Source: Pelotomaculum schinkii (lineage in GTDB: Bacteria; Bacillota; Desulfotomaculia; Desulfotomaculales; Pelotomaculaceae). Taken from it: a stretch of 64,000 bases of DNA. The stretch spans positions 1-64,000 of the forward strand of contig NZ_QFGA01000002.1 in NCBI RefSeq assembly GCF_004369205.1, given 5' to 3'. A program made the translations under genes and the position numbers. Positions 8,475-50,342 of the stretch are shown here, in pieces. Positions within the stretch are counted from its first letter, which is position 1. Each line of letters starts with the position of its first letter. The notes under the pieces were generated by a model, which saw only the letters and a program-made list of their open reading frames with translations, made no database searches and had not been told where the DNA came from.

Positions 8475-8488
8475 GGTAATCAGGTAGT

Positions 8489-8590
8489 GTTCTCCTTTCC
8501 GCAGTGGGAGGTGCGCAGGTTTCCCATACACACCCTTCCGGCCCATTAACCATAACTACCAAGTCCCAGGTAAGCAGGCTCGGAGAACTC
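8489..8590 (-). promoter_or_regulatory. Moco/Tuco riboswitch upstream of tupBC
   Basis: Minus-strand leader with the Moco RNA landmarks in order: TTCTCCGAGCC, GGCCGGAAGGG, GGGAAACC, CACCTCCCA and CGGAAAGGAGAA; the outer stem pairs TTCTCC with GGAGAA. The Moco motif is reported to sense molybdenum or tungsten cofactor and to control cofactor synthesis, transport and user genes. Position before a W/Mo transporter fits this. The same landmarks recur five more times in this window. Confidence 0.85.
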
Positions 8591-8857
8591 ATATACAGAT
8601 CAAGTCTATTGAAAAATAAAAGGCTCTCTAGTATCTACAAAAGCGTAATCATTTTTCAACATAAAGCGACTCCTTCGCTTCTTTTATCATTTTATTTACT
8701 GGAATTTATAAAGTCAATAAATATCTAATAAAAATAGGGTTTGGCAAATTTAGTTTAAAAAGCTATAATAGTATAAGTTCAAGACATTACAAAAATTTGT
8801 ATTGCCTGGTTTTTTTATTTTTCAAGACCTCTACCAGACTATTATAGATAATAAAAT

Positions 8858-15903: not shown

Positions 15904-15994
15904 ACAAGGCTGTGGATATTAATGGTGAAAGGAGGCTTCTAATTTTAAGAATATTCTATAGATAATAAATTTTCTGGAGAGAGGGGCACCAAAT

Positions 15995-16094
15995 TTACTC
16001 CGAACCTGGCAATCTAAGGCTTAATAAGCTATGATTTCCAGGTCGTTAGGGTATATAAGGGAAACCTGTATGCCTCCCATTTGGAAAGGAGTAG
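15995..16094 (+). promoter_or_regulatory. Moco/Tuco riboswitch upstream of fdhA1
   Basis: Landmarks TTTACTCCGAACC, CCAGGTCGTTAGGG, AAGGGAAACC, TGCCTCCCA and TGGAAAGGAGTA in the Moco order; the outer stem is TACTCC/GGAGTA. It lies 50 bases before the fdhA1 start, inside the cluster between tatC and fdhA. Downstream GCGT/ACGC pairing followed by CTTTTTTGG (16094-16126) may be a weak terminator; alternatively control could act on the adjacent ribosome binding site. It would tie FdhA synthesis to cofactor supply. Confidence 0.8.
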
Positions 16095-16143
16095 CGTCAT
16101 TTAGCTATTTACGCGCACTTTTTTGGATAAGGAGGTCAGGTTT

Positions 16144-19100
16144 GTGAAGCAAAAGATTAGCCGTCGCGATTTTCTGAAGATACTTGGAATTGGTACCGCC
16201 GGGTCGGCCTTGCTTAATGGCGTAACAGCCGTGCCGGCCTTAGCCAGCACGGCGGAAGACAAGCTGCCTACCTTCGCTTTGGGTGAATTTAAACTGGCCA
16301 AGGCCAAAGAAACCCCTTCAGTTTGCGCTTTTTGCGGGGTTGGCTGCGGCCTTATTGTTTATTCGAATGAAGAAGGCAGGGTTTTGAACATAGAAGGAGA
16401 TCCGGACAACCCGAATAATGAAGGCACCATGTGCTGCAAAGGCATCGCGCTTGGCGACGCCAACACTATTATCGACCCGAAGAGCCGCAAGCGTACAGTT
16501 AATGACCGGCGGATTATGGACGTTCTATACCGCGCCCCCGGCGGGACCAAGTGGGAGAAGAAGGATTGGGAATGGGCTCTTAGTGAAATAGCCAAACGGG
16601 TCAAAAATACCCGTGACGCCGCCTTTGAAGAAAAGGACGCGAATGGTGTCACCGTTAACCGTACCCAGGCCATCGCCCATATCGGCAGCGCCTCCTGCGA
16701 TAACGAAGAGAATTACCTCTTTCAAAAGATGATGCGGTCATTAGGGGTCATCAACATCGACCACCACGCCCGCCTCTGACACTCCTCCACAGTGGCCGGT
16801 CTTGGCCAAACATTTGGCAGGGGTGTTATGACCAACAGCTTTACGGATTACAAAAACACGGACGTTTTCCTGATTATCGGCGCCAACCCGGCGGAGAACC
16901 ACCCGCAGGTTATGCGCCACATGGGCAGGGCCATGGCCGAAAGAGGCGCCAAGGTTATTGTCGTTGATCCCAGGTTTACCAAAACGGCAACCAAAGCAAA
17001 TATTTACGCTCCTCTACGCCCTGGCACCGATATCGCATTTCTTTACGGTATTATGAATTACGCTCTTGAAAACAACTTATACTTCCATGACTATGTCGCC
17101 AATTATACCAACGCCTCATATCTTGTGAGCCCTGAATATGCCCTTAACGAAGGAGCGTTTAGCGGTTTAACGGAGAAAGACGGCAAATTCTCCTATGACA
17201 CTACAAGCTGGCAGTACCAAAAAGACGGGGATACCATTAGAAAAGACCCCTCCTTGCAGAATCCTTTCTGTGTATTCCAAATTCTGAAGAATCAGGTCGC
17301 CCGCTATGATATCAAAACCGTATGCAGCATCACCGGTACTCCGGAAGATGTATATAAGAAAGTCTGTGATCTCTATTGCTCCACCGGCAAGCCCGATAAG
17401 GCCGGCAACCTGATTTACGCCATGGGTATTACCCAGCACACCTACGGCAGCCAGAACGTCCGGGCAACCGCCATGCTGCAGCTGCTGCTCGGCAACATCG
17501 GCATCGCCGGCGGCGGCGTCAACGCCCAGCGGGGTGAGTCAAACGTGCAGGGTTCCACGGATCAGGGGATCCTCTATCACCTGCTCACCGGTTACCTGGG
17601 TTCACCGAGCGCGACCGCCCATGCTAATTTGCAGGAATACATCGAGAAGGAAACGCCCAAGACAGGTTACTGGTCGAACAAACCAAAGTTTTTAATCAGC
17701 ATGCTCAAAGCATGGTATGGGGATAAGGCAAACAAAGAAAACGACTTCTGCTTTGACTACATTCCCAAACACGACGGTAAAGACCACTCCCATATGGCCA
17801 TTTACGAGGCTATGGCAGCCGGTACAGTCAAAGGCTATTTTGCCTGGGGACAAAACCCGGCGGTCGGCGGCCCCAACGCCCTTGCCGCGCGCAGCGCGCT
17901 GGAAAACCTGGACTGGATGGTGGCTGTCGACCTGTTTGAAACAGAAACCGCCGCCTTCTGGAAGCGTCCCGGCGTCAACCCGGCCGATATCAAAACAGAG
18001 GTTTTCCTCCTGCCGACCGCTTTCTCTTACGAAAAAGAGGGCACTGTCGCCAACAGCTCGCGCTGGATCCAGTGGCGCTGGAAGGCCGTGGAACCGCCCG
18101 GGCAGGCCAAGAGCGACCTGTGGATTGCCTATAATATGTTTAAGGCCATCCGTAAGGAGTACCAATCCGGCGGCAAATTCACCGACCCGATTAACAACCT
18201 GGTCTGGGACTACGACATGCCCGGCCACGACGAGCCGGATATCATCAAAATAGCCAATGAGATGAACGGTTATGTAGTGGGGGATGGAACCATTCTGGAT
18301 TCTTTCGCCAAATTAAAAGATGACGGCACTACGGCTTGCGGTATATGGATTTACGCCGGCTACATGTTTGTCGATCCGGTGGCCAAAGTACCTGCTTCAC
18401 AGCGGCGCGACCGTGAAGACAAAAGCGGCCTGGGGCTCTTCCCCAAATGGACGTTTGCCTGGCCTGTCAACAGACGTATCGTATATAACCGCAACTCTGC
18501 CGACCCGTCCGGCAGACCTTGGGATCCGAAAAGAATGCTGGTTTCCTGGGATGGAACACAATGGGTCAACAACGACGTGCCTGACTTCGGGTTTAAGGAT
18601 GCCGCAACCGGGGCCTTTATTACTCCGGACAAGTCGGCCGTCAATTCCTTTATCATGACCACCGAAGGACAAGGGCGCCTGTTTGCTCCAACGGGTATGA
18701 AAGACGGGCCGTTGCCTGAGCACTACGAGCCGGTTGAAAGCCCGGTTAAAAATGCCATGGGCAAATACCAAAGCAACCCTCTGGCAACCAGGTACAAGGG
18801 TGACTTTGCCAGGCTGGCGGAAACAGCCAGCCCAGATTTCCCCTACATCGGCACCACACCACGTCTGGTCGAACACTATCAGAGCGGCGCCGTCACTAGA
18901 AACTGCCCCACCCTGGCTGAAATACAGCCGGAAATGTTCGCCCAGATTTCTTTAAGCCTGGCCAATAAGTTGGGCGTCAAACCCGGCGACTGGGTGCTGG
19001 TAAGCTCCGCGCGAGGCGAAATCAAATGCAGGGCCAATGTCATGCCTGTGGTTAAGCCGCTGCAAGTGGCCGGCAAGGAATTGGAAATAGTCAGTCTGCC

Positions 19101-22677: not shown

Positions 22678-23154
22678 ATGGATCAAGAGAACAGCAAAAA
22701 AGTATTTGTTATCGGCGTTGGCAACCTGCTTCTGGGTGATGAGGGCATTGGCATACATCTCATCCGGGAGATGAAAAAGGAGCTTTTGCCTCGTAATGTC
22801 GAACTGGTCGATGGTGGCACCGCCGGGATTGACCTGCTGTACTGGCTGGAAGAAGCAGATTACGCTATCATAGTTGATTGCGTTGAAGCCGGGGCAGTGC
22901 CAGGAGCTATTTTTCGTGTTCCCGGAGATGAGCTGCTTATTGAATCCACAGGCCAGCTCATCTCCCTGCACGATATTAATCTTAGCGAAGTATTATTATT
23001 AGCGACTAAAATGAATAAGCTTCCCCCTACGATAATTTTTGGTATCCAGCCTGAGGTTATCGGTTACCAAACCGAGCTGTCACCAACCCTTCAAAACACA
23101 CTCCCCCGTTTGATGCAACTTATAAAAAAGGAAATATTAAAAATTTTTGCATAA
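22678..23154 (+). CDS. hydrogenase maturation endopeptidase (HyaD/HycI family)
   Basis: 158 residues. After nickel insertion it removes the C-terminal tail of the hydrogenase large subunit. Family marks: GVGNLLLGDEGIGIHL with the metal-binding Glu/Asp, VDGGTAGIDLLYWLE with Asp, and a later HDINLSEVL with the metal-binding His. The substrate is presumably the large subunit at 32568, which ends with the expected cleavable tail. GAGGAT precedes the ATG. A truncated second copy of the 3' half of this gene lies at 30621-30897. Confidence 0.9.
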   Translation: MDQENSKKVFVIGVGNLLLGDEGIGIHLIREMKKELLPRNVELVDGGTAGIDLLYWLEEADYAIIVDCVEAGAVPGAIFRVPGDELLIESTGQLISLHDINLSEVLLLATKMNKLPPTIIFGIQPEVIGYQTELSPTLQNTLPRLMQLIKKEILKIFA

Positions 23155-23219
23155 AAAATATTTTGTATTATTGTAATTTAGAAGGAATTTTAGATATTTA
23201 GTGGAAAATTATCATTATA

Positions 23220-23318
23220 TTTCTCCGAGCCGGGTTATAACCTAAGCAATTGGTATGGTTTACCGGCCGTTAGGGTGCACCGGGAAACTGTTGGGCCTCC
23301 CATTGTGGAAAGGAGATC
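23220..23318 (+). promoter_or_regulatory. Moco/Tuco riboswitch, tandem copy 1 before fdhE2
   Basis: Landmarks TTTCTCCGAGCC, ACCGGCCGTTAGGG, ACCGGGAAACTG, GGCCTCCCATTG and GGAAAGGAGAT; the outer stem TCTCC/GGAGA closes the aptamer. It is followed by its own terminator, then a second full riboswitch. Confidence 0.87.
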
Positions 23319-23332
23319 TCCTAAGCAAAGGT

Positions 23333-23588: not shown

Positions 23589-23829
23589 AGAGGTATTTAT
23601 CCATTCTAAATCTTATAAATAGCGCTACTAGAGTCTTATCCGTAAGGGGTCCTCTTTAAAGAAATGGTTAGTTGGATTTTGGCAGCCTAAATGCGGCCAA
23701 ATGTGAAGCATGGTTCATATACAACTGTTTAAAGGGGGTGCATATATAAACACATATAACTTGTTGAGTATTTTGTTAATTCATTCACAAGGAGGGTTCT
23801 GGAAAACTCATAGAAAGTGAGCGTTTAGA

Positions 23830-26957: not shown

Positions 26958-29900
26958 ATGAAAAAATATATTAGCCGCCGTGATTTCTTTAAATATTTGG
27001 GAGTAGGCGCAGCCGGAGCGACTTTATCCGGAGCGACTTTATTTGGAGGAGTCGGCGCAAAACCTGCTTTAGCTGGAGAAAATTTGCCTAGTTTTGAGTT
27101 GGGTACTTTTAAGTTAAAGAAAACCAAAGAAACTGCTTCTGGCTGTCCTTATTGCGGATGTGGTTGTAGTACTATTGTTTATTCAGAAAACGATAAGGTG
27201 GTTTTTATTGAAGGGGATCCTGATAGTCCTATTAATGAGGGGGCTTTATGTCCAAAAGGGGCAGCTCTTCCGGATATCCATAACTTTGTAAATAAAAAGC
27301 GTCAGCGTGTACTCAACCCGAATCGGTTAACGGAGGTTCTTTACCGTGCCCCCGGCAGCAACCAGTGGGAAGTAAAAGACTGGGATTGGGCTATGCCTGA
27401 AATCGCTAAAAGGGTAAAAAAGACCCGGGATGAACACTTTGAAGAAAAAGACGCTAATGGTGTCACGGTTAACCGCACCATGGCCATTTGCCAGATGGGC
27501 AGCGCAAATATTAACAACGAAGAAGACTATTTAATTAATAAGCTCATGCGGGGAGCCCTGGGTGTGGTTGATCTTGACCATTGCGCCCGTCTCTGACACG
27601 CCCCAACCGTAGCCGGTCTGGCTAATACTTTTGGTCGGGGAGTAATGACTAATAGTTTTACTGATTATAAGAATACAGACATATTTTTAATTATTGGATC
27701 CAACCCGGCCGAAGCTCACCCCATGGCCATGCGTCACATTGGCAAGGCCCTGGCAAAAGGAGCCAAAATGATTGTCGTTGACCCGAGGTTTACCAAAACA
27801 GCGGCCAAGGCAGATATTTACGTTCCTTTGCGTCCGGGGACAGACATTGCCTTTCTTTACGGTCTGATTAACTACGCCGTTGAAAATGATCTTTACCAAC
27901 ACGAGTACGTGCATAACTATACCAATGCTTCTTACTTAATCAGTCCCGATTATAATTTTGCGGATGGTGTTTTTTCCGGTTTAGAGGAAAAAGACGGCAA
28001 ACTATCCTATAACACCGCCAGCTGGGCTTACCAAAAAGACGGCGATAATATTAAAAAAGACCCCACTTTGCAGGATCCCCGGTGCGTCTGGCAAATCATG
28101 AAAAAGCATGTTTCCCGCTATGACATCAAAACGGTCAGCAAAGTCACGGGAACCCCGGAAGATATTTTACAAAAAGCTTACGCTACTTATTGCGAGTCGG
28201 GAAAACCGGATGTGGCAGGCAATTTAATTTACGTACTGGGAATCACCCAGCACAGTTACGGAACTCAAAACACACGGGCAACTACCATGGTGCAGCTCTT
28301 GCTGGGCAATGTAGGCCTGCCCGGTGGCGGCCTTAACCCCCAGCGGGGGCAGTCAAATGTTCAGGGCGCCTGTGACGTGGGAATGCTGTGGAATAATATT
28401 ACGGGCTATCTCAATGTCCCCGATGCGACAAAACATCCCACGTATAAGGACTACCTGGCGGTGGAAACGCCCAAGACGGGATACTGGTCCAACAAACCCA
28501 AGTTCCTGGCCAGCCTGCTCAAGGCCTGGTACGGGGAAAAAGCCGCCAAAGAAAATGACTTTTGCTATGACTGGCTGCCTAAATCAGACGGGAAAGACCA
28601 TTCCCACATGTCTTCCTACGTCTCCCTGGCGGAAGGACATATTAAAGGCGTCTTTTGCTGGGCTGAAAATCCTTCCGTAGCCGGGCCGGATGCTTCTCAC
28701 GAGGCCAAGGCCCTGGAAAACGCGGACTGGATGGTCTGTGTTGATTTATTTGAAAACGAAACAGCAGCTTTCTGGAAGCGTCCAGGAGTAAACCCGGCGG
28801 ATATAAAAACTGAAGTTTTTGTGCTGCCGGGCGCTCTCATATACGAATCAGAAGGCACGAGAACAAACAGTTCACGCCATATTCAATGGCGCTGGAAGGC
28901 TGTTGAGCCGCCCGGACAGGCAAAAAGCAGTCTCTGGATTGCCGACCGGATATTTAAGGCTGTCCGCCAGGAATACCGTAGCGGCGGCAAATTTACCGAT
29001 CCTATTTTAAACATGGTTTGGAATTATGATAAGCCGGGACAGGACGGGCCGGATATAGAAAAAATAGCGATTGAAATGAACGGTTATAATGTGGCGGACG
29101 GCCGGGTTTTAGGTACTTTCGGCGACCTGAAAGATGATGGTTCTACGGCCTGCGGTATATGGGTTTACGCCGGTTATTATTACGTTGACCCCAATGAGCA
29201 AGACCCGTTGTTAAAGATACCCGCTACCAAAAGGCATGGTACGGAGGATAAAAGCGGGCTTGGCGTATATCCGAAATGGACCTTTGCCTGGCCTGTGAAT
29301 CGGCGCATTGTTTATAACCGTTGTTCGGCTGACCCGGCCGGACGGCCCTGGAAAAAGGATAAACCCTATATGGTCTGGGACGGAACAAAGTGGATTGCCA
29401 ACGATGTTCCCGATTTCGGCATCACGGACGCGGCTACAAAAGCGCCGGTACCACCGGAAAAGACAGCCAATGCTCCTTTTATTATGCTTCCTGAAGGGCA
29501 GGCGCGCTTCTTTGTTCCTGCCGGCTTGAAAGAAGGTCCTATGCCGGAACACTACGAACCGGTGGAAAGCCCGGTAAAAAATTTAATTAGTAAGCAGCAA
29601 AACAATCCTATGGCTAAGAGATGGGGAGGCGAATTTGCTAAATTGGCCGAAACCGGCAGCAAAGAGTTCCCTTACGTGGCTACAACCGTCCATTACATTG
29701 AACATTATCAAACCGGGGTAAGAACCAGAAACAGCCCCATGCTGGTAGAATTGATGCCGGAACAATTTGCCACCATATCGCCGACTTTAGCCGGTAATTT
29801 GGGAATAAAACCTGGAGATGAGATAATTGTAAGCAGCGCCCGGGCGGAAATAAAAATGAAGGCCAATGTTTTACCGATTGTTAAACCCTTAATTGTAAAC

Positions 29901-30445: not shown

Positions 30446-30555
30446 TAGAGATAATCATAATTAGAGGGAAAATATTAGGGTTAGGAAATAGCATAAGTCG
30501 GTAATACTGAACACTTCCCGTCAACAGCTGAAAATGCCCGAAAGGCCCTCCACAG

Positions 30556-30618
30556 AACTCGAAATCGAGTAGACCGTGATGAGCGGTCTCGTGGGTTCGA
30601 ATCCCACCCTCTCCGCCA
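30556..30618 (+). pseudogene. 3' half of a tRNA-Ser (CGA-type), truncated at the anticodon loop
   Basis: From the anticodon loop on (CTCGAAA, then TCGAG) the sequence has a long class II variable arm (ACCGTGATGAGCGGT), T arm (GTGGG TTCGAAT CCCAC), acceptor strand CCTCTCC and G-CCA. The 5' half, including the stem partner CTCGA, is missing and replaced by unrelated sequence. Site-specific integration or recombination in the anticodon loop would leave such a half. The complete gene is not in this window. Confidence 0.75.
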
Positions 30619-30620
30619 TA

Positions 30621-30897
30621 TTGCGTAGCAGCAGGGGGGGAACCAGGAGCTATTTTTCGTGTTCCCGGAGATGAGCTGCTTATTGAATCCACAGGCCAGC
30701 TCATCTCCCTGCAGGATATTAATCTAAGCGAAGTATTATTATGAGCAACTAAAATGAATACACTTCCCCCCATTATAATTTTTGGCGTCCAGCCTGAGGT
30801 TATCGGTTACCAAACTGAGCTGTCACCAACCCTTCAAAATACACTCCACCGTTTGATCCAACTTATCAAAAAGGAAATATTAAAAATTTTTACATAA
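30621..30897 (+). pseudogene. 3' remnant of the hydrogenase protease gene
   Basis: Matches the second half of the gene at 22678-23154 from the TTGCGT near 22879 onward. It lacks the start and has an in-frame TGA at the place of a leucine in SEVLLLATK. Pure debris carried by the duplication that also brought the riboswitch leader. Confidence 0.85.
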
Positions 30898-30962
30898 AAA
30901 ATATTTTATATTATTGTAATTTAGAAGGAATTTTAAATATTTAGTGGAAAATTATCATTATA

Positions 30963-31061
30963 TTTCTCCGAGCCAGGTTATAACCTAAGCAATTGGTATG
31001 GTTTACCGGCCGTTAGGGTTCACCGGGAAACTGTTGAGCCTCCCATTGTGGAAAGGAGATC
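30963..31061 (+). promoter_or_regulatory. Moco/Tuco riboswitch, tandem copy 1 before the hydrogenase
   Basis: All landmarks kept: TTTCTCCGAGCC, ACCGGCCGTTAGGG, ACCGGGAAACTG, GCCTCCCATTG and GGAAAGGAGAT. One change (TTGGGCC to TTGAGCC) relative to the fdhE2 copy. Its gene target is a nickel-iron hydrogenase operon, unusual for this riboswitch class. Confidence 0.85.
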
Positions 31062-31071
31062 TCTTAAGCAA

Positions 31072-31118
31072 AGATAAAACTTTGTCCTTTTCACATTGGA
31101 CAAAGTTTTACCTTTCCT
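31072..31118 (+). terminator. riboswitch terminator 1 before the hydrogenase
   Basis: Hairpin AAACTTTGTCC/TTGGACAAAGTTTT followed by ACCTTTCCTTTT. The T-run is less perfect than in the fdhE2 copy. Confidence 0.75.
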
Positions 31119-31180
31119 TTTAAAGATATTGATATGATATAGCTTTGTTATAAGTAATGTTTTTTGAAAAATATCATTAT

Positions 31181-31279
31181 GTTCTCCGAGCCAGGTACAA
31201 CCTAAGCAATTGGTATGGTTTGCTGGCCGTTAGGGTCCATCGGGAAACTGTTGGGCCTCCCATTGTGGAAAGGAGATCT
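31181..31279 (+). promoter_or_regulatory. Moco/Tuco riboswitch, tandem copy 2 before the hydrogenase
   Basis: Landmarks GTTCTCCGAGCC, GCTGGCCGTTAGGG, TCGGGAAACTG, GGCCTCCCATTG and GGAAAGGAGAT. Intact by eye; substitutions fall in variable positions. Confidence 0.85.
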
Positions 31280-31287
31280 CGTAAGCA

Positions 31288-31338
31288 AAGGTAGAACTTT
31301 GTTCTTTTCACATTGGACAAAGTTTTACCTTTCCTTTT
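31288..31338 (+). terminator. riboswitch terminator 2 before the hydrogenase
   Basis: Hairpin AAAGGTAGAACTTTGTTC with TTGGACAAAGTTTTACCTTT, then CCTTTTAG. Preserved pairing but a weak T-run. About 210 bases of leader follow to the small-subunit start. Confidence 0.7.
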
Positions 31339-31548
31339 AGAGGCATTTAATGATTCTTAATCATTTAAAATATCGATACTGGAGTTCCAGCCATAAGGAG
31401 TCCTCTTTCGTGAAACGATGCGTTAAATTTGGCAGCTCAGATGCGGCCAAATATGAGACTGGTTTCCAAGTAACCGGTTAAAGGGGGTGCATAGAGACAC
31501 ATAACTTACCGGGACTTTATTAATTCATTTACAGGGAGGGATAAGGAC

Positions 31549-32553
31549 TTGAGTTTAACCAGGCGTGAATTTATTAAGCTATGTATGAGCTCTGCGGTGG
31601 GGGCAAGCCTGCTCACAATTGTCGGACCTGATCTTGAGAAAACACTGGCTCTGGCAGCCGAAGGCAAACCGCCGGTGATCTGGCTGCAGGGGGCCAGCTG
31701 TACCGGATGTTCCGTATCTTTGTTAAACAGCGTTGACCCCGCAATTGAAAAAGTACTTCTCGATATTATCAGCTTAAAATATCACCCGAATATTTCTGCC
31801 GGGTCCGGCCACCTCATCGCTGAGATCCTGGACGAAGCCGCCACCAAATACAAGGATCAGTTTATACTGGTTGTTGAAGGCGCCATCCCCCTTAACAACG
31901 ACGGTGTTTATTGTACCATCGCTGAAAAGGACGGGCGGGAAATAACCATGCTGCACGCGGTAAATGTACTGGGCAAAGCGGCCAAGGCCGTGATTGCCGC
32001 CGGCCAGTGCGCATCATACGGAGGTATTCCCGGCGCAGCCCCCAATCCCACCGGAGTCGTGGGAGTAAATAAGATCGTTGACGAAAAAAAGGTGATCAAT
32101 ATCTCCCTGTGCCCGATGCAGCCGGACCATTTCCTGGGCACCGTGGTATATATATTGACATACGGCGAGATCCCGGAACTGGACCGGTATGGACGGCCCA
32201 AGATGTTTTTCCCGAAACCAATACATGAAAGCTGCTTAAGGCGTGAACATTTTGACGCAGGCAGGTTCGCGCGTTTCATCGGAGATGAGGGCTGCCTGGC
32301 CCTGTTGGGCTGCAAGGGCTTTGTGGCTATGTCCGACTGCCCCACCCGCGGCTGGAACAACAACGTCAACTGGTGTGTTAAGGCCGGCGCCCCTTGCTAT
32401 GCCTGCTCGGAACCGACATTCCCCGATATGTCCTCACCAATTTACGGCGTTTATCCCTTAACGAACAAAACAGCGGCTGCTGCAGCCTATTTGAATCCCC
32501 AGAAAACAGAGTTTTTGGAAAAGAACAGAGCTAGCAGAAAACTTGCTGAGTGA
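31549..32553 (+). CDS. [NiFe] hydrogenase small subunit
   Basis: 334 residues. Tat signal SLTRREFIKLCMSSAVG sends the dimer across the membrane. Carries three Fe-S clusters that conduct electrons from the NiFe site: proximal ligands in GASCTGCSVSLLNS and AAGQCASYGGIPGA, further Cys in ISLCPMQPDH, and distal/medial ligands in HESCLRREHFDAG, GDEGCLALLGCKG, CPTRGWNNNVNWC and CYACSEPTFPD. TTG start with GGGAGGG 8 bases upstream. Belongs to the periplasmic uptake type (group 1). Confidence 0.93.
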   Translation: MSLTRREFIKLCMSSAVGASLLTIVGPDLEKTLALAAEGKPPVIWLQGASCTGCSVSLLNSVDPAIEKVLLDIISLKYHPNISAGSGHLIAEILDEAATKYKDQFILVVEGAIPLNNDGVYCTIAEKDGREITMLHAVNVLGKAAKAVIAAGQCASYGGIPGAAPNPTGVVGVNKIVDEKKVINISLCPMQPDHFLGTVVYILTYGEIPELDRYGRPKMFFPKPIHESCLRREHFDAGRFARFIGDEGCLALLGCKGFVAMSDCPTRGWNNNVNWCVKAGAPCYACSEPTFPDMSSPIYGVYPLTNKTAAAAAYLNPQKTEFLEKNRASRKLAE

Positions 32554-32567
32554 GGTGAAATGAAGCA

Positions 32568-34013
32568 GTGGTACAACGTATTATTATTGATCCGGTAACC
32601 CGGATAGAAGGGCACCTGAAAATTGAAGCAGAGATTGAAAACGGCCGGGTCATTGACGCCAAGTCGAGCGGCACTCTATTCCGCGGTCTGGAAATAATCG
32701 CCAGAGGGCGGGATCCCCGCGACGCCTGCCACCTGGTCCAGCGGATCTGCGGCGTCTGCCCCATCGCGCACGGCACCGCCTCCATCTTGTGCCTGGACGA
32801 CGCCTTTAACGTCACCCCGCCTGCCAACGGCAGGATTTTGCGCAACTTGATTCAAGGCTCAAACTACCTGATGTCACACATCCTGCACTTTTACCATCTG
32901 ACCGCCCTTGATTACGTTAAGGGTCCGGATACCGCCCCTTTCATCCCCCGGTATGAGGGTGACTACCGGCTGCCCAAGGAAATCAACGACAAAGCCGTGG
33001 AGCACTATATCCAGGCTTTGGACATCCGCAAAAAGGCGCATGAAATGGGCGCCGTATTCGGGGCCAAAATGCCGCACGTTACCGCCTACACGGCAGGCGG
33101 GGTAACGGAAACCGTCACGCCGGAGAAAATTACTCAGTTCAAGGCTTACCTCGTGGAAATAACTTCCTTTATCAACGACGTATATGTCCCGGATGTCCTG
33201 GCTGTAGCAGGCGCATATGACGATTGGTTCACCATCGGAGCAGGCTGCAAAAACCTGCTGGCCTACGGCGCTTTCCGGTTAACCGACCAGTTGGACCCGG
33301 ATGGACAACAACAGCTTTTCAGGCGCGGTATCTACACCAAAGGCCAGTACGCGCCCATGGACCCTAAAAAGATTACCGAGGAAGTTAAATATTCCTGGTA
33401 CGACGACAAATCGACCGGCAAATACCCCGGGGATGGCGCGACCGTACCGGCGCCGGGCAAAAAAGACGCCTATTCCTGGCTCAAAGCGCCGCGTTATGAC
33501 GGCATGCCCTATGAAGTCGGCCCATTGTCGCGGCAGGTCGTTAACAAACAGAAAGACGTTATGGAGTTGGGAGATAAAGCGTTTTCAGTTTTGGGCAGGC
33601 ACTTCGCCCGCGCCCTGGAAACAGCCCAGGTGGCAGCGGCCATGGTGGAATGGCTTGACCAGTTGGCGCCGGGCCAACCCTGTTATGAACCCTTCGATAT
33701 TCCCAAGGAAGGGTCGGGCATGGGTCTGCACGAGGCGTCCCGCGGCGCCCTGGGGCACTGGATTACCATCAAAGATTACAAAATTGAGAACTACCAGGCT
33801 GTGGTGCCTACAACCTGGAACTGCGGCCCGCGGGACGACCGCGGCCAGCGCGGTCCGGTCGAGGAGGCCCTGGTGGGAACACAGGTGAAAGATCCGCATA
33901 ACCCGATTGAACTGGCGCGTATCGTCCGGGCCTTTGACCCATGCATTGCCTGCGCGGTCCATGTACTGGAAATCAAGGGTGTTTCCAAAGAACCGATGAG
34001 CTTTATCGTCTAA
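32568..34013 (+). CDS. [NiFe] hydrogenase large subunit
   Basis: 481 residues containing the Ni-Fe active site. L1 motif RICGVCPIAHG (near residue 60) and L2 motif DPCIACAVH near the C-terminus give the four Ni/Fe cysteine ligands; neither contains selenocysteine. Cleavage after the L2 histidine would remove a 16-residue tail beginning VLEIKG, the job of the protease at 22678. GTG start, 14 bases after the small subunit stop, with GAGGTG overlapping that stop. Exported as a passenger of the small subunit. Confidence 0.94.
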   Translation: MVQRIIIDPVTRIEGHLKIEAEIENGRVIDAKSSGTLFRGLEIIARGRDPRDACHLVQRICGVCPIAHGTASILCLDDAFNVTPPANGRILRNLIQGSNYLMSHILHFYHLTALDYVKGPDTAPFIPRYEGDYRLPKEINDKAVEHYIQALDIRKKAHEMGAVFGAKMPHVTAYTAGGVTETVTPEKITQFKAYLVEITSFINDVYVPDVLAVAGAYDDWFTIGAGCKNLLAYGAFRLTDQLDPDGQQQLFRRGIYTKGQYAPMDPKKITEEVKYSWYDDKSTGKYPGDGATVPAPGKKDAYSWLKAPRYDGMPYEVGPLSRQVVNKQKDVMELGDKAFSVLGRHFARALETAQVAAAMVEWLDQLAPGQPCYEPFDIPKEGSGMGLHEASRGALGHWITIKDYKIENYQAVVPTTWNCGPRDDRGQRGPVEEALVGTQVKDPHNPIELARIVRAFDPCIACAVHVLEIKGVSKEPMSFIV

Positions 34014-34054: not shown

Positions 34055-34870
34055 ATGTCCAATGGCGTTTTGGTAGACATTAGCAAATGCATCGGCTGCC
34101 GGAGCTGTGTGACAGCCTGCAAGACATGGAATGACCTGCCCGTTAAAACGTCCCAAAATACAAATCAGTGGGACGCCCCCGTCGATCTCGATTCCGATAC
34201 CTGGACCAGGATTAGCTGCCACATTGTCGGCGAGGGGAACCAGCGCAAGTGGCGGTTTGTCAAAAGGCAGTGCATGCACTGCAACGAGCCGGCCTGCGAG
34301 TCCGCCTGCTTTACCCATTCCTTCGAAAAGACCGAGGAAGGCGCGGTTATTTATAAACCCACCGAATTGGACAAGGATTACTGCGTGGGTTGCCGCTACT
34401 GCATGATTGCGTGTCCCTTCAACATACCCAAGTTCCAGTATGAAAAAACGTTCCCGTACGTCCAAAAATGCCGTTTTTGCTACGACCGCCTGCTGGAGAA
34501 CGAACGGCCCGCCTGTATCACCGCCTGCCCCACCGGCGCCTTGAAGTACGGCAACCAGGAAGAGCTCCTTGCCGAGGCCAGGCAGAGAATAAACAGCAAT
34601 CCCGGCTATGTCAATCAAATCTACGGGGAAAAGGAATACGGCGGCACATCCTGGATGTATATTTCAGACGTACCGTTTGAACAGCTTGGTTTCCGCACCA
34701 ATGCAACGCAAAAATCGATACCATCTTATACCTGGGATGTGCTCAAGTGGACTCCCTATATTTTTGTCGGCTGGGGCGCCCTGCTTACGGCAATGAGATT
34801 CTTCACCAAGCCGAAAGAAGAGGGGCATAATGAAGCCGAAATGTACGCTCCCGTCGATCCCAAGGAATAA
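34055..34870 (+). CDS. Fe-S electron-transfer subunit, copy 3 (hydrogenase)
   Basis: 271 residues with the same four-cluster plan (CIGCRSCVTACKTW, CMHCNEPACESACFT, CVGCRYCMIACPFN, CRFCYDRLLENE with CITACPTGA) and C-terminal anchor (WTPYIFVGWGALLTA) as the two formate dehydrogenase versions. It replaces the HybA role between hydrogenase and membrane. Unlike E. coli HybA it has no Tat signal of its own. ATG with GGAGGTG. Confidence 0.92.
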   Translation: MSNGVLVDISKCIGCRSCVTACKTWNDLPVKTSQNTNQWDAPVDLDSDTWTRISCHIVGEGNQRKWRFVKRQCMHCNEPACESACFTHSFEKTEEGAVIYKPTELDKDYCVGCRYCMIACPFNIPKFQYEKTFPYVQKCRFCYDRLLENERPACITACPTGALKYGNQEELLAEARQRINSNPGYVNQIYGEKEYGGTSWMYISDVPFEQLGFRTNATQKSIPSYTWDVLKWTPYIFVGWGALLTAMRFFTKPKEEGHNEAEMYAPVDPKE

Positions 34871-34902: not shown

Positions 34903-36069
34903 GTGTACGGAAGAAACTGGAGTTTTAGAATTACATGGTTTAGAATACTGCTCATACTATTTGTACTTGGCGCGGTTGCGGCTGCCTTATACCGTTTCAT
35001 CTACGGCTTGGGCGCGGTAACCAACTTGAACAATGATTGGCCCTGGGGCCTGTGGATCGGCTTTGACCTCTTATGCGGGATCGCTCTGGCGGGCGGCGGT
35101 TTCAGCACAGCCTTGATTGTACATGTCCTCCATAAAGATAAGTATCTGCCCATCGCTCGCGCCGCACTGTTAACTTCCTTGTTGGGATACATTATCTCCC
35201 TGGTCAGCCTCTTCCTGGATATCGGGAGATGGTTTAACTTCTGGAGGCCTTTCTTTTACTGGGGTTTCCACTCGGTATTGTTCGAAGTGTTCTGGTGCAT
35301 TGCACTTTACACAACAATCCAGGTCCTGGAGTTTGGGGACATCTTCTTCGAGAAGGTGAAGTTCCCCGCTTTGAAAAAGATCCTGGGCTACATGATGACG
35401 CCGCTGTTGATCCTTGGCATCGTCCTGCCCAGCCTGCACCAGTCCTCCCTGGGTTCGCTCTATATCGTTGCAGTTGATAAACTCTATCCCCTGTGGTGGT
35501 CCATGCTGATCCCGTTCTTCTTCGTCTGGTCCGCTTTCTTCCTGGGGCCGGCCATGGTCACCGTTGAAGGCACCCTGGCGGCGAAAGCTTATGGAAGGAA
35601 TCCGGAGCTGCCTGTATTCCAAAGCATGACCAAGGTGACCATGTGGATGATGATCATTTACTTTATCGTCAAGATGATCGATCTCAACTACCGTGGTGTG
35701 TTCGGGATGGCCTTCAACGGTTCTCACGAGAGCAACATGTTTTTAATTGAAATGATCGTCTTTATCCTGTTACCGATTTTCATGTACGCCATCCCTTCCA
35801 TCCGCACCAGGCTGTGGGGGGTTGTAACGGCTTCTCTCCTGGTGGTAGTAGGTGTTGTGTTTAACCGCATGAATGTGGTGTTCACCGGAATGGCCAAGAG
35901 CGTGGGCAGCAGCTATTTTCCCAGTATCTGGGAATTGCTCATTACCATCGGCATGTGGAGCTTCCTGGCATTAGCGTACTTGTTCATCGTTGAAAATTTC
36001 TCGATTCTGCCCAAGGAAGAGCATACCCACACCACAACCAGGATCTACGATACCGGCTTCCACGCTTAG
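34903..36069 (+). CDS. NrfD/HybB-type membrane subunit 3 (hydrogenase)
   Basis: 388 residues, GTG start after GGAGGTGAGAATAG. HybB-like quinone-reactive membrane subunit with about ten helices. Long DNA stretches (for example about 35199-35290) are identical to copy 1 while others follow copy 2, a patchwork suggesting gene conversion. Terminator follows. With the three upstream genes it forms a Hyd-2-like H2-oxidising or H2-evolving membrane complex. Confidence 0.92.
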   Translation: MYGRNWSFRITWFRILLILFVLGAVAAALYRFIYGLGAVTNLNNDWPWGLWIGFDLLCGIALAGGGFSTALIVHVLHKDKYLPIARAALLTSLLGYIISLVSLFLDIGRWFNFWRPFFYWGFHSVLFEVFWCIALYTTIQVLEFGDIFFEKVKFPALKKILGYMMTPLLILGIVLPSLHQSSLGSLYIVAVDKLYPLWWSMLIPFFFVWSAFFLGPAMVTVEGTLAAKAYGRNPELPVFQSMTKVTMWMMIIYFIVKMIDLNYRGVFGMAFNGSHESNMFLIEMIVFILLPIFMYAIPSIRTRLWGVVTASLLVVVGVVFNRMNVVFTGMAKSVGSSYFPSIWELLITIGMWSFLALAYLFIVENFSILPKEEHTHTTTRIYDTGFHA

Positions 36070-37035: not shown

Positions 37036-38100
37036 TTATTTCAGTATTTTATCTTCTTCCAGGTCGGAGACACCGGCTTCGTCAAAAGAAGCCATCTCCC
37101 GCATTATTTTCGTGGCAGCTTCAACCAGGCTCATGGTTAGAGCGGCTCCCGTTCCCTCCCCGAGCCTCATTTGCAGGTGAATCACCGGGCGCAGATCCAA
37201 CAGGTCCAACATCAGGCGGTGTCCCTGTTCACCGGACAGGTGGGAGGCAATCATGTACTGGCGGGATTTAGGCTGCAGTTTGAAGGCCACCAGGGCGGCC
37301 GCGGTGGTTATAAACCCATCAATCAATACCGGCGTCCGCCTGGCAGCGGCCCCCAGGATCACACCGGCCAGACCGGCGATCTCAAGCCCGCCGACTTTTG
37401 CCAGAACATCCAGGGCGTCTTCCGGATCCGGCCGGTTTTTTGCGAGCGCCCGGGCTATCGCGGAAATCTTCAGTTTCATAACTTCGTCGTTGACCATGGT
37501 CCCGCGGCCGGTCGCCTCTTCAGCTGTATAGCCGCCAAAGGCTGCCAGGATAGCGCTGCTCGGGGTGGTATTGCCGATCCCCATATCGCCTGTAGCGAGG
37601 AGGTTGCTTCCTGCGTCAATCTCGGACTGAGCTACCTCTATCCCCACTTCCAGTGCCTGTACTGCCTCGTCCCGTGACATAGCCGGGCCGGCGGCAATAT
37701 TCCCGGTACCTGCCCTGACCTTACGCTGTACGACACCCTGCAAGGCGACGGGCGTGAGAACACCGACATCGACCACAACCAGCCTGGCAGCAGCGTGCCT
37801 TGCCAGAACCCCTATTCCGGCTACACCATTTACCATTGCCTGCATCATCTGAACGGTAACTTCACGGGGCGCTACACTTACACCTTCGTCGACCACTCCG
37901 TGGTCCCCCGCCATGACGATAACCGATTTCCCCTGAACGCGGGGTTTGGCTTTGCCGGTAATACCGGCCAGGCGTACTGCTATCTCTTCCAGCACGCCGA
38001 GGCTCCCCGGCGGCTTGATTAAGCTGTCCAGCCGTTTCTGCGCCTCTTCCATGGCCTTGCGATCCAGCTCCCCAATTTGCTTGATGGTTTGATAAAGCAT
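37036..38100 (-). CDS. cobT: nicotinate-nucleotide-dimethylbenzimidazole phosphoribosyltransferase
   Basis: 354 residues. Makes alpha-ribazole phosphate, the lower-ligand nucleotide of cobalamin, from nicotinate mononucleotide and a base. Family marks are KPPGSLGVLEEIAVRLAGI, VMAGDHGVVDEGVS, GDMGIGNTTPSSAIL and the catalytic glutamate in MRLGEGTGAALTM. ATG with AGGAGG 9 bases upstream. Single gene under a cobalamin riboswitch. Corrinoid supply would suit methylmalonyl-CoA mutase or methyltransferases (inference). Confidence 0.95.
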   Translation of the reverse strand: MLYQTIKQIGELDRKAMEEAQKRLDSLIKPPGSLGVLEEIAVRLAGITGKAKPRVQGKSVIVMAGDHGVVDEGVSVAPREVTVQMMQAMVNGVAGIGVLARHAAARLVVVDVGVLTPVALQGVVQRKVRAGTGNIAAGPAMSRDEAVQALEVGIEVAQSEIDAGSNLLATGDMGIGNTTPSSAILAAFGGYTAEEATGRGTMVNDEVMKLKISAIARALAKNRPDPEDALDVLAKVGGLEIAGLAGVILGAAARRTPVLIDGFITTAAALVAFKLQPKSRQYMIASHLSGEQGHRLMLDLLDLRPVIHLQMRLGEGTGAALTMSLVEAATKIMREMASFDEAGVSDLEEDKILK

Positions 38101-38186: not shown

Positions 38187-38227
38187 ACCATCATCCATCG
38201 GATACCCCTGCATAGCAGGGTTCGTGG

Positions 38228-38388
38228 ACACAACAGGCAGGTCTCCTGGCTCACATTCATCACACATCGCACCTTCCCGGCAAACTGCCAGTGGTAAACT
38301 AGCGATAGCGCTCGTGTTTACAGTGGCGGGACCGCTCAGGACTTAAACCTGATTCCCTATTCTCCCCAGCGGGCACCTGTTGGTTTAA
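38228..38388 (-). promoter_or_regulatory. cobalamin riboswitch of cobT
   Basis: Minus strand shows the B12-box layout: GGTGCCCGC, GGGAATCAGGT, AGTCCTGAGCGGTCCCGCC, ACTGTAA, then GCCAGGAGACCTGCCTGTTG. With the attenuator it should switch cobT off when adenosylcobalamin is abundant. Confidence 0.93.
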
Positions 38389-38459
38389 CACAGTAATAAT
38401 TTTCATAAAGATTCAACTTTAGCCATACATATTCCTGCTGTTTAAAGCAGAAATATTTT

Positions 38460-49936: not shown

Positions 49937-49951
49937 AACGATCCAATCGAA

Positions 49952-50048
49952 AAGCAGCATCCCTCCGCTGGCATTACCCAGTTCAGGTTCATTGGGTCAG
50001 AACGCACTGTTCTTTCTCAGCCGGATTACCCAGCTCCCCATGCATATA
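49952..50048 (-). promoter_or_regulatory. TPP riboswitch of the thi operon
   Basis: Minus strand has the THI-box order: GGGGAGCTGGGT, GGCTGAGAAAG, TGACCCAATGAACCTGAACT, GGGTAATGCCAGCGGAGGGA. Controls thiD-cytX-thiM-thiE-HAD by attenuation. Confidence 0.95.
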
Positions 50049-50342
50049 TGAAATTTAAATTAACCAGGGCATAACTACCCCAGTTCCTACCTTGGATTCT
50101 AAATTATAGTAAGGACATTATAACACATTATTTCATTTATTGATATATCGATTATTTAAGACATAATTTTATTTTACAAAAGAAAACAAGCATTACTGCG
50201 AAAATACCATATTTTACATTCTATCACTCAGAATATTTTATGTCCTTTTCCTCAAGGTGTTGTATAATAATCAATGGTTAAAAATACAAACACAAAGGCG
50301 GCATAGATTTTTCCGGAAAAAAACTTAAGAGGAGTTGGCTTT

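Follow-up and report, generated by a model that had tools for sequence, protein, structure and literature searches.

Tandem Moco/Tuco riboswitches before a [NiFe] hydrogenase operon in Pelotomaculum schinkii: a conserved leader with a probable OFF-switch layout

What do two riboswitches of a molybdenum- and tungsten-cofactor class do in front of a hydrogenase operon whose enzyme carries neither cofactor? This is the question raised by a locus of Pelotomaculum schinkii, in which two RNAs of the RF01055 class (Moco/Tuco, the tungsten-cofactor form also being referred to as Wco) lead directly into [NiFe] hydrogenase genes. Regulski et al. (2008, PMC2408646), in the part of that paper available to us, link the class to MPT, Mo and W genes, and the word ‘hydrogenase’ is absent from its main text. 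A sequence-only reading of the locus had set the pairing against established knowledge of the class; it is not unprecedented, however, and the novelty is reduced, because one line of Sherlock et al. (2022, PMC9481103) already places tandem Wco riboswitches upstream of ‘nickel and zinc binding hydrogenase’ genes. The available part of that paper gives no control sign, conservation, mechanism or purpose for the hydrogenase tandems, and its Table 2, as far as accessible, contains no pair of Moco/Wco with c-di-GMP. In the accessible text of PMC2408646, PMC5651825, PMC3543383, PMC6239172, PMC5317091 and PMC3766115 the link between riboswitch and hydrogenase is absent. The conservation, sign and purpose of the association are thus without an account in the open-licence literature searched, and are the subject of the present analysis.

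The window, as we call the whole 64-kb stretch of DNA analysed, contains the following hydrogenase operon.

31549-32553, + strand: [NiFe] hydrogenase small subunit with a Tat signal (TIGR00391 over cut-off)
32568-34013, + strand: [NiFe] hydrogenase large subunit with RICGVC and DPCIAC (PF00374 and NF033181 over cut-off)
34055-34870, + strand: HybA/HmcB-like Fe-S subunit (ferredoxin), by family search
34903-36069, + strand: HybB/NrfD-like membrane subunit, by family search

The C-terminal motif of the large subunit, DPCIAC, has a cysteine and no selenocysteine. Both large-subunit motifs, read by eye, and the Tat signal of the small subunit agree with the marks of a group 1-type enzyme, namely RxCGxC at the N-terminus and DPCxxC at the C-terminus of the large subunit and a Tat signal on the small one. 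Judged from its sequence, the operon product is a Tat-exported [NiFe] hydrogenase without a Mo/W cofactor, as had been claimed, the families and the DPCIAC motif both pointing this way. The operon resembles that of Escherichia coli Hyd-2 (HybOABC) in its small, large, HybA-like and HybB-like subunits and in the presence of a HybD-type protease in P. schinkii, whereas all of these proteins score below the E. coli-specific cut-offs and the operon has a riboswitch leader. The idea of a Mo/W enzyme hidden in the operon was rejected: with the window's own proteins as queries, none was found in the corresponding stretches of four related genomes (G012, G013, G016 and G009). Two further genomes, G014 and G015, have a 29% Mo-enzyme-like match more than 4 kb beyond the large subunit, and in G015 a large ORF intervenes.

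The leader upstream of this operon is made up of two aptamers, each followed by a hairpin.

30889-30917, + strand: promoter-like TTTACA-17-TATTGT, weak (9/12), just 5' of aptamer 1
30954-31074, + strand: Moco/Tuco aptamer 1 (RF01055), 62.2 bits, P3 absent
31075-31110, + strand: terminator-like hairpin 1, -15.2 kcal/mol, loop CCTTTTCACATTGG complementary to aptamer CCATTGTGGAAAGG
31172-31291, + strand: Moco/Tuco aptamer 2 (RF01055), 63.1 bits, P3 absent
31287-31332 (extended), + strand: terminator-like hairpin 2, -21.8 kcal/mol, with a similar complementary loop

Both aptamers are full-length matches to the Rfam covariance model, well over its gathering cut-off of 36 bits and the same in a repeat search, so that the intact tandem proposed from the sequence alone, and the covariance-model check suggested for it, are borne out; the proposed feature start, 30963, belongs to a real leader but falls inside aptamer 1, which begins at 30954. 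In the covariance-model alignment the P3 positions of both aptamers are deleted, which puts them in the P3-less Tuco subclass. According to the accessible part of Regulski et al. (PMC2408646), this form tracks tungsten-cofactor use, and since P3 is absent Tuco is the likelier ligand of the window aptamers, a prediction from the correlation with P3 loss. The window RNAs are thus like the Moco RNAs described there in having an aptamer over threshold and the P3-less form of tungsten users; some of those RNAs, in the same part of the paper, have terminators, and tandem and triple copies occur in Syntrophomonas wolfei. The single + strand promoter candidate between 30600 and 31600 is that at 30889-30917, and promoter-like sites on both strands (three, against 2.4 in shuffles) are weak evidence. 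A terminator after each aptamer had also been claimed, and holds by folding: a simple terminator scan of the leader, with a loop limit of 8, found none, missing the hairpins because their loops are longer, so the label ‘terminator’ on both of them rests on folding, and the scan was replaced by a custom search that misses hairpins with mismatched stems. The tail 3' of each hairpin is T-rich but interrupted, and hairpin 2 shares the last bases of the Rfam span of aptamer 2. By sequence and folding, the leader is a tandem riboswitch, with two complete aptamers of the same class and an expression platform for each.

The layout of these platforms bears on the sign of control. In the window, a duplex with a single mismatch (-20.7 kcal/mol) can form between the aptamer segment around CCATTGTGGAAAGG and the terminator loop around CCTTTTCACATTGG, and the equivalent pair in G012 is CATTGCGAAAAG with CTTTTCGCAATG. 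In 13 of 17 hydrogenase leaders, judged by eye, the aptamer 3' segment has its best duplex partner within the terminator loop. Tested against dinucleotide shuffles, four of 17 hydrogenase aptamers reach p 0.02 or less (both window aptamers, RS1 and RS2, and those of G001 and G012), and the other 13 lie above 0.05. When loops were swapped between 19 of 34 leaders, a leader's own loop beat the swapped ones (p=0.001), most of the signal coming from the 11 non-hydrogenase leaders (p=0.0024) and the eight hydrogenase leaders giving a weak p=0.094; against mononucleotide shuffles, four of these eight succeed at 0.05. Seven near-duplicates (window RS2, G001, G015, G100, G102, L010 and L016) and seven leaders in which no terminator was found (G013 RS1, G105, G106, L001, L002, L004 and L018) were left out of the swap test, and G107 was removed by hand. 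Complementarity of this kind is also present in the leader of a tungstate-type transporter (p=0.04, with the loop set by hand), which counts for an OFF sign because repression of such a transporter by the cofactor makes sense.

Folding of growing transcripts, a thermodynamic sketch without ligand or kinetics, covered 10 of the 17 leaders. The 3' strand of P1 flips to the loop as the loop emerges in nine of these 10 (0.83 and 0.69 in the window, 0.89 in G001, 0.91 in G012, 0.88 in G013 RS2, 0.85 in G101, 0.87 in G014, 0.84 in G016 and 0.63 in G009), with no flip in G107 (maximum 0.32). At lengths that include the whole terminator, P1 is restored in both window copies and in G012, G101, G014 and G009, being lost again at the last length in G012; it returns at one length only in G013 RS2 and weakly in G016 (0.14 at the last length), and never in G001, which keeps the antiterminator at every folded length beyond the loop. 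The custom search found no terminator in G105 and G106, and the leaders of G105-G107, if functional, must work otherwise. A terminator that excludes, and is excluded by, an antiterminator using the aptamer 3' strand, as expected of an OFF riboswitch, is therefore found by folding in the window copies, is weak in some orthologues and was not seen in G105-G107. On these models the window leader has a probable OFF-switch layout, in which the ligand would let the terminator form; we infer the same sign for the cell.

A survey of 113 genomes of the order found a related small subunit (E 1e-60 or better) in 55 genomes, with 82 matches, and upstream DNA was examined for 50 of the 82 (all 35 at 53% identity or above and 15 of the 47 below). 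An RF01055 RNA precedes the orthologous hydrogenase in all 15 genomes that carry the hydrogenase of the window's clade (8/8 of family f1 and 7/7 of family f16) or, counted by copies, 15 of 17. The two copies without one (G000:C3 495624 and G001:C199 8700) belong to a single paralogue lineage, 88% identical to the window protein, which arose by duplication within the genus and constitutes a natural unregulated control. Outside the clade, RF01055 was found before none of 32 testable homologues (17 at 53-67% and 15 at 40-44% identity), one of the 33 stretches, L106, having been excluded because its 204 bases of upstream DNA are too short; three further loci from a named collection (L080-L082, 44-48% identity) likewise have no RF01055 upstream. 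The distance from the end of the nearest aptamer to the start codon is 179 to 257 bases in 12 of the 15 cases and 581 to 628 bases in G099, G101 and G102, and an extra gene between riboswitch and hydrogenase in these three long leaders was rejected, no ORF over 52 codons being found there. In a tree of 31 small subunits all 17 copies fall into one clade (support 100/99), and riboswitch presence requires two label changes, compared with 10.7 in shuffles, which we read as one gain and one loss and hence as an old linkage of single origin.

Clade members, by letter-for-letter sequence match, include P. propionicicum MGP (G013), P. terephthalicicum JT (G016) and Peptococcaceae bacterium SCADC1_2_3 (G105), and their leaders vary in composition. 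The hydrogenase aptamer of P. terephthalicicum JT (L065 6733-6862) has the P3 stem, that is the Moco form, whereas those of its close relatives G014 and G015 lack P3 (by eye), a contrast which suggests that sensing at a single gene may have switched between W and Mo. The P. propionicicum MGP leader (L064 6233-6646; also L071) has a Moco aptamer, a c-di-GMP-I aptamer (62.7 bits) and another Moco aptamer in series; the 3' end of the c-di-GMP aptamer can pair with the loop of the middle hairpin, and on folding of the composite leader the first Moco aptamer gave no clear result. Degenerate second Moco-like copies, sub-threshold and recognized by eye, lie between aptamer and hydrogenase in L086, L088 and L089. 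From these sequences it looks as if tandem aptamers in the hydrogenase leader have often been gained and lost.

The window holds a second copy of the same leader, which precedes a formate dehydrogenase operon (FDH2).

22678-23154, + strand: intact hybD (hydrogenase maturation protease), by family search
23211-23331, + strand: RF01055 aptamer 1 of the duplicate leader before FDH2, 57.9 bits
23422-23540, + strand: RF01055 aptamer 2 of the duplicate leader before FDH2, 63.9 bits
23830-30056, + strand: FDH2 operon with fdhE-like, HybA-like, HybB-like and FDH-N alpha genes, by family search
30620-30894, + strand: hybD 3'-end remnant with an in-frame stop, which travelled with the duplicated leader

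The FDH-N alpha gene of FDH2 is one frame with a TGA at 27594-27596 that probably encodes selenocysteine. The segment from 22877 to ~23796, comprising the 3' part of hybD and the tandem leader, is repeated at 30620 to ~31540 with 87% identity over 931 bases and 92% over the first 300. After the second terminator, a stretch of the hydrogenase and FDH2 leaders (31428-31487 and 23678-23737) is conserved at 70% over 60 bases; it ends in a G run before TGCA and is also seen by eye in G001. Abutting the start of the duplicate at 30620, positions 30540-30618 look by eye like the 3' half of a serine tRNA with a CCA end, where ARAGORN calls no tRNA; an integration event may have left this piece behind as a scar. 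The sister genome G001 (Pelotomaculum sp. UBA10960, identical in its letters to record L069) has a similar layout, with an intact hybD followed by a leader with one RF01055 match on the FDH2 side; on the hydrogenase side there are 54 bases matching the hybD end, an intact aptamer and, by eye, part of a second one.

Gene order suggests which of the two sites is the older. In nine other genomes, six of the same family (G009, G012-G016) and three of f16 (G105-G107), hybD lies directly 5' of the riboswitch and the hydrogenase directly 3' of it, which points to the hydrogenase as the original site and to FDH2 as the probable recipient of the duplicate; hybD was not found in the available upstream stretch of four more f16 genomes (G099-G102). 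Outside the clade, G095 and G098 have hybD upstream of the hydrogenase with no riboswitch between them. Probably, then, the order of hybD and hydrogenase predates the riboswitch, which would have been inserted between the two, FDH2 acquiring the duplicate later.

The hydrogenase RNAs can also be set beside the other members of their class, of which the Rfam model finds six in the window and 19 in the genome. The window abounds in W/Mo genes with RF01055 leaders, and two of its RNAs precede single-aptamer operons.

8476-8596, - strand: RF01055 before ABC transporter genes resembling TupB and WtpC, both below the curated cut-offs of those models
15986-16107, + strand: RF01055 before FDH-N operon 1, no terminator found, in-frame TGA at 16777-16779

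Elsewhere in the genome, the genes 3' of RF01055 resemble, as named by reading the sequences, aldehyde oxidoreductase (AOR), NAD-linked FDH with moeA, xanthine-dehydrogenase-like operons and an ECF-type transporter. RF01055 RNAs are also found upstream of two very large proteins with no evident Mo/W role, one of 1355 aa with RCC1 repeats and Shr-like domains (L023 8414-12481, minus strand) and one of 1490 aa with Kelch repeats and a subtilase domain (L024 1051-5523, plus strand). Riboswitches of other classes in the window are a TPP riboswitch (49943-50050, minus strand) and a cobalamin riboswitch (38219-38395, minus strand), the latter lying upstream of a DBI_PRT-family gene (37036-38100).

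Several other accounts of the hydrogenase leader have to be weighed against an OFF switch. It could have been left behind passively by a duplication of FDH2 sequence and be irrelevant to the hydrogenase, as the repeat with its broken hybD 3' end might suggest; we find this barely credible, since hybD, riboswitch and hydrogenase follow one another in nine other genomes and the linkage persists in 15, and a hitch-hiker from FDH2 is rejected by genomes that have this order without an adjoining FDH. It is hardly more probable that the hydrogenase aptamers recognize some other molecule, such as a compound linked to assembly of the nickel-iron site, which the lack of a Mo/W cofactor in the enzyme might suggest. 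Of the 21 near-invariant core columns of the genome's 17 other RF01055 RNAs, 20 are identical in all 17 hydrogenase aptamers and the 21st varies among the other RNAs as well, so that the core gives no sign of an altered ligand, and a nearly identical leader serves an FDH. Distinctly unlikely, too, is that most hydrogenase mRNA starts within the leader after the second terminator, leaving the riboswitches with little effect: more than 200 bases, including the stretch shared with the FDH2 leader, separate hairpin 2 from the start codon, yet a bypass promoter between 31340 and 31548, which had been named as a finding that would refute the proposal, was absent from the + strand in a scan for one promoter type, a weak test.

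An ON switch, with the cofactor raising hydrogenase and FDH2 together so that the enzymes of H2 and formate exchange rise when the W cofactor allows formate metabolism, is unlikely but has more to be said for it. It would suit the duplicated leader common to FDH2 and the hydrogenase, and in two W/Mo enzyme operons of the genome, read as AOR and cytosolic FDH, the predicted accessibility of the ribosome site was 0.06 and 0.08 and rose to 0.26 and 0.27 when P1 was forced to form, which is an ON direction. The other two operons tested went from 0.84 to 0.85 (no difference) and from 0.17 to 0.11 (a slight drop), the latter values, free and forced, giving no support to a translational ON switch before FDH-N operon 1. 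Moreover, most hydrogenase leaders have the OFF layout, with a terminator whose antiterminator partner lies within the aptamer, whereas no terminator was found in the AOR and cytosolic FDH operons.

We consider it fairly probable that tandem tungsten-cofactor (Tuco/Wco) riboswitches with their own intrinsic terminators respond to abundant cofactor by repressing the operon of a periplasm-facing [NiFe] hydrogenase, an explanation for which aptamers, hairpins, complementarity and single-origin conservation come from sequence and folding, and ligand, OFF sign in vivo and purpose are our interpretation. In the ligand-free RNA, the P1 3' strand together with the adjacent P5 segment would pair with the loop of the hairpin under transcription, spoiling the terminator and letting RNA polymerase read on; with ligand bound, P1 would hold and the terminator form, and two gates in series should sharpen the response. 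Scarcity of the W (or Mo) cofactor, under which formate dehydrogenases would not be assembled, would thereby lead to synthesis of a W/Mo-free hydrogenase, which would let electrons leave as H2 or enter from H2. The earlier suggestion that hydrogenase rises when formate dehydrogenase cannot be assembled fits the OFF layout, but cannot hold for FDH2, which should follow the hydrogenase rather than oppose it because its operon carries a duplicate of the same leader. FDH2 would thus also be off when the cofactor is plentiful, which is odd for a W/Mo enzyme and the weak point of the OFF model; FDH2 may be a backup enzyme, perhaps using Mo, or the OFF sign may be wrong. The 88% identical hydrogenase without a riboswitch in the same genome likewise counts against the OFF explanation. 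The first interpretation of the locus is thus supported in part; it had overlooked the duplication, the presence of the leader across 15 genomes and the probable direction of control.

A parallel to the proposed substitution comes from Pelobacter carbinolicus, in which W raised FDH activity 100-2700-fold and H2 could take the place of formate as a shuttle (PMC4275255). The authors called the hydrogenase activity of this organism the same whether or not W was supplied (BV 91 without and 83 with; MV 115 without and 60 with) and used its hydrogenases as their W-independent reference. By analogy these data support the substitution idea, but they show no clear W response of that organism's own hydrogenases, which counts against the OFF explanation. 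A wider scenario, which we hold with a little less than even confidence, is that a single capture event placed a tungsten-cofactor riboswitch between hybD and the hydrogenase genes in one Desulfotomaculaceae-type syntroph lineage, where it has since acted as a direct switch between a W-dependent exchange currency, formate, and a W-free one, hydrogen, with c-di-GMP as a second input in P. propionicicum and one copy freed after duplication.

The logic of such a switch can be compared with that of the B12 riboswitches, which repress B12-independent isozymes. The shared feature is a cofactor sensor that governs a substitute enzyme not needing the cofactor; the difference is that the substitute under the hydrogenase leader catalyses another reaction (H2 for formate) and is no isozyme. 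‘Isozymes of B12-dependent enzymes’ are a class of RNA-motif-regulated genes in the available part of PMC3766115. If the OFF model is true, the RF01055 class would gain a comparable substitute-enzyme logic, and the one-line puzzle of W-cofactor riboswitches before hydrogenases would be explained. Whether syntrophs use formate or hydrogen as electron carrier to methanogens is a long-running question, in which tungsten supply is one factor. If the leader works as predicted, W-cofactor status would set hydrogenase expression in these organisms through RNA alone.
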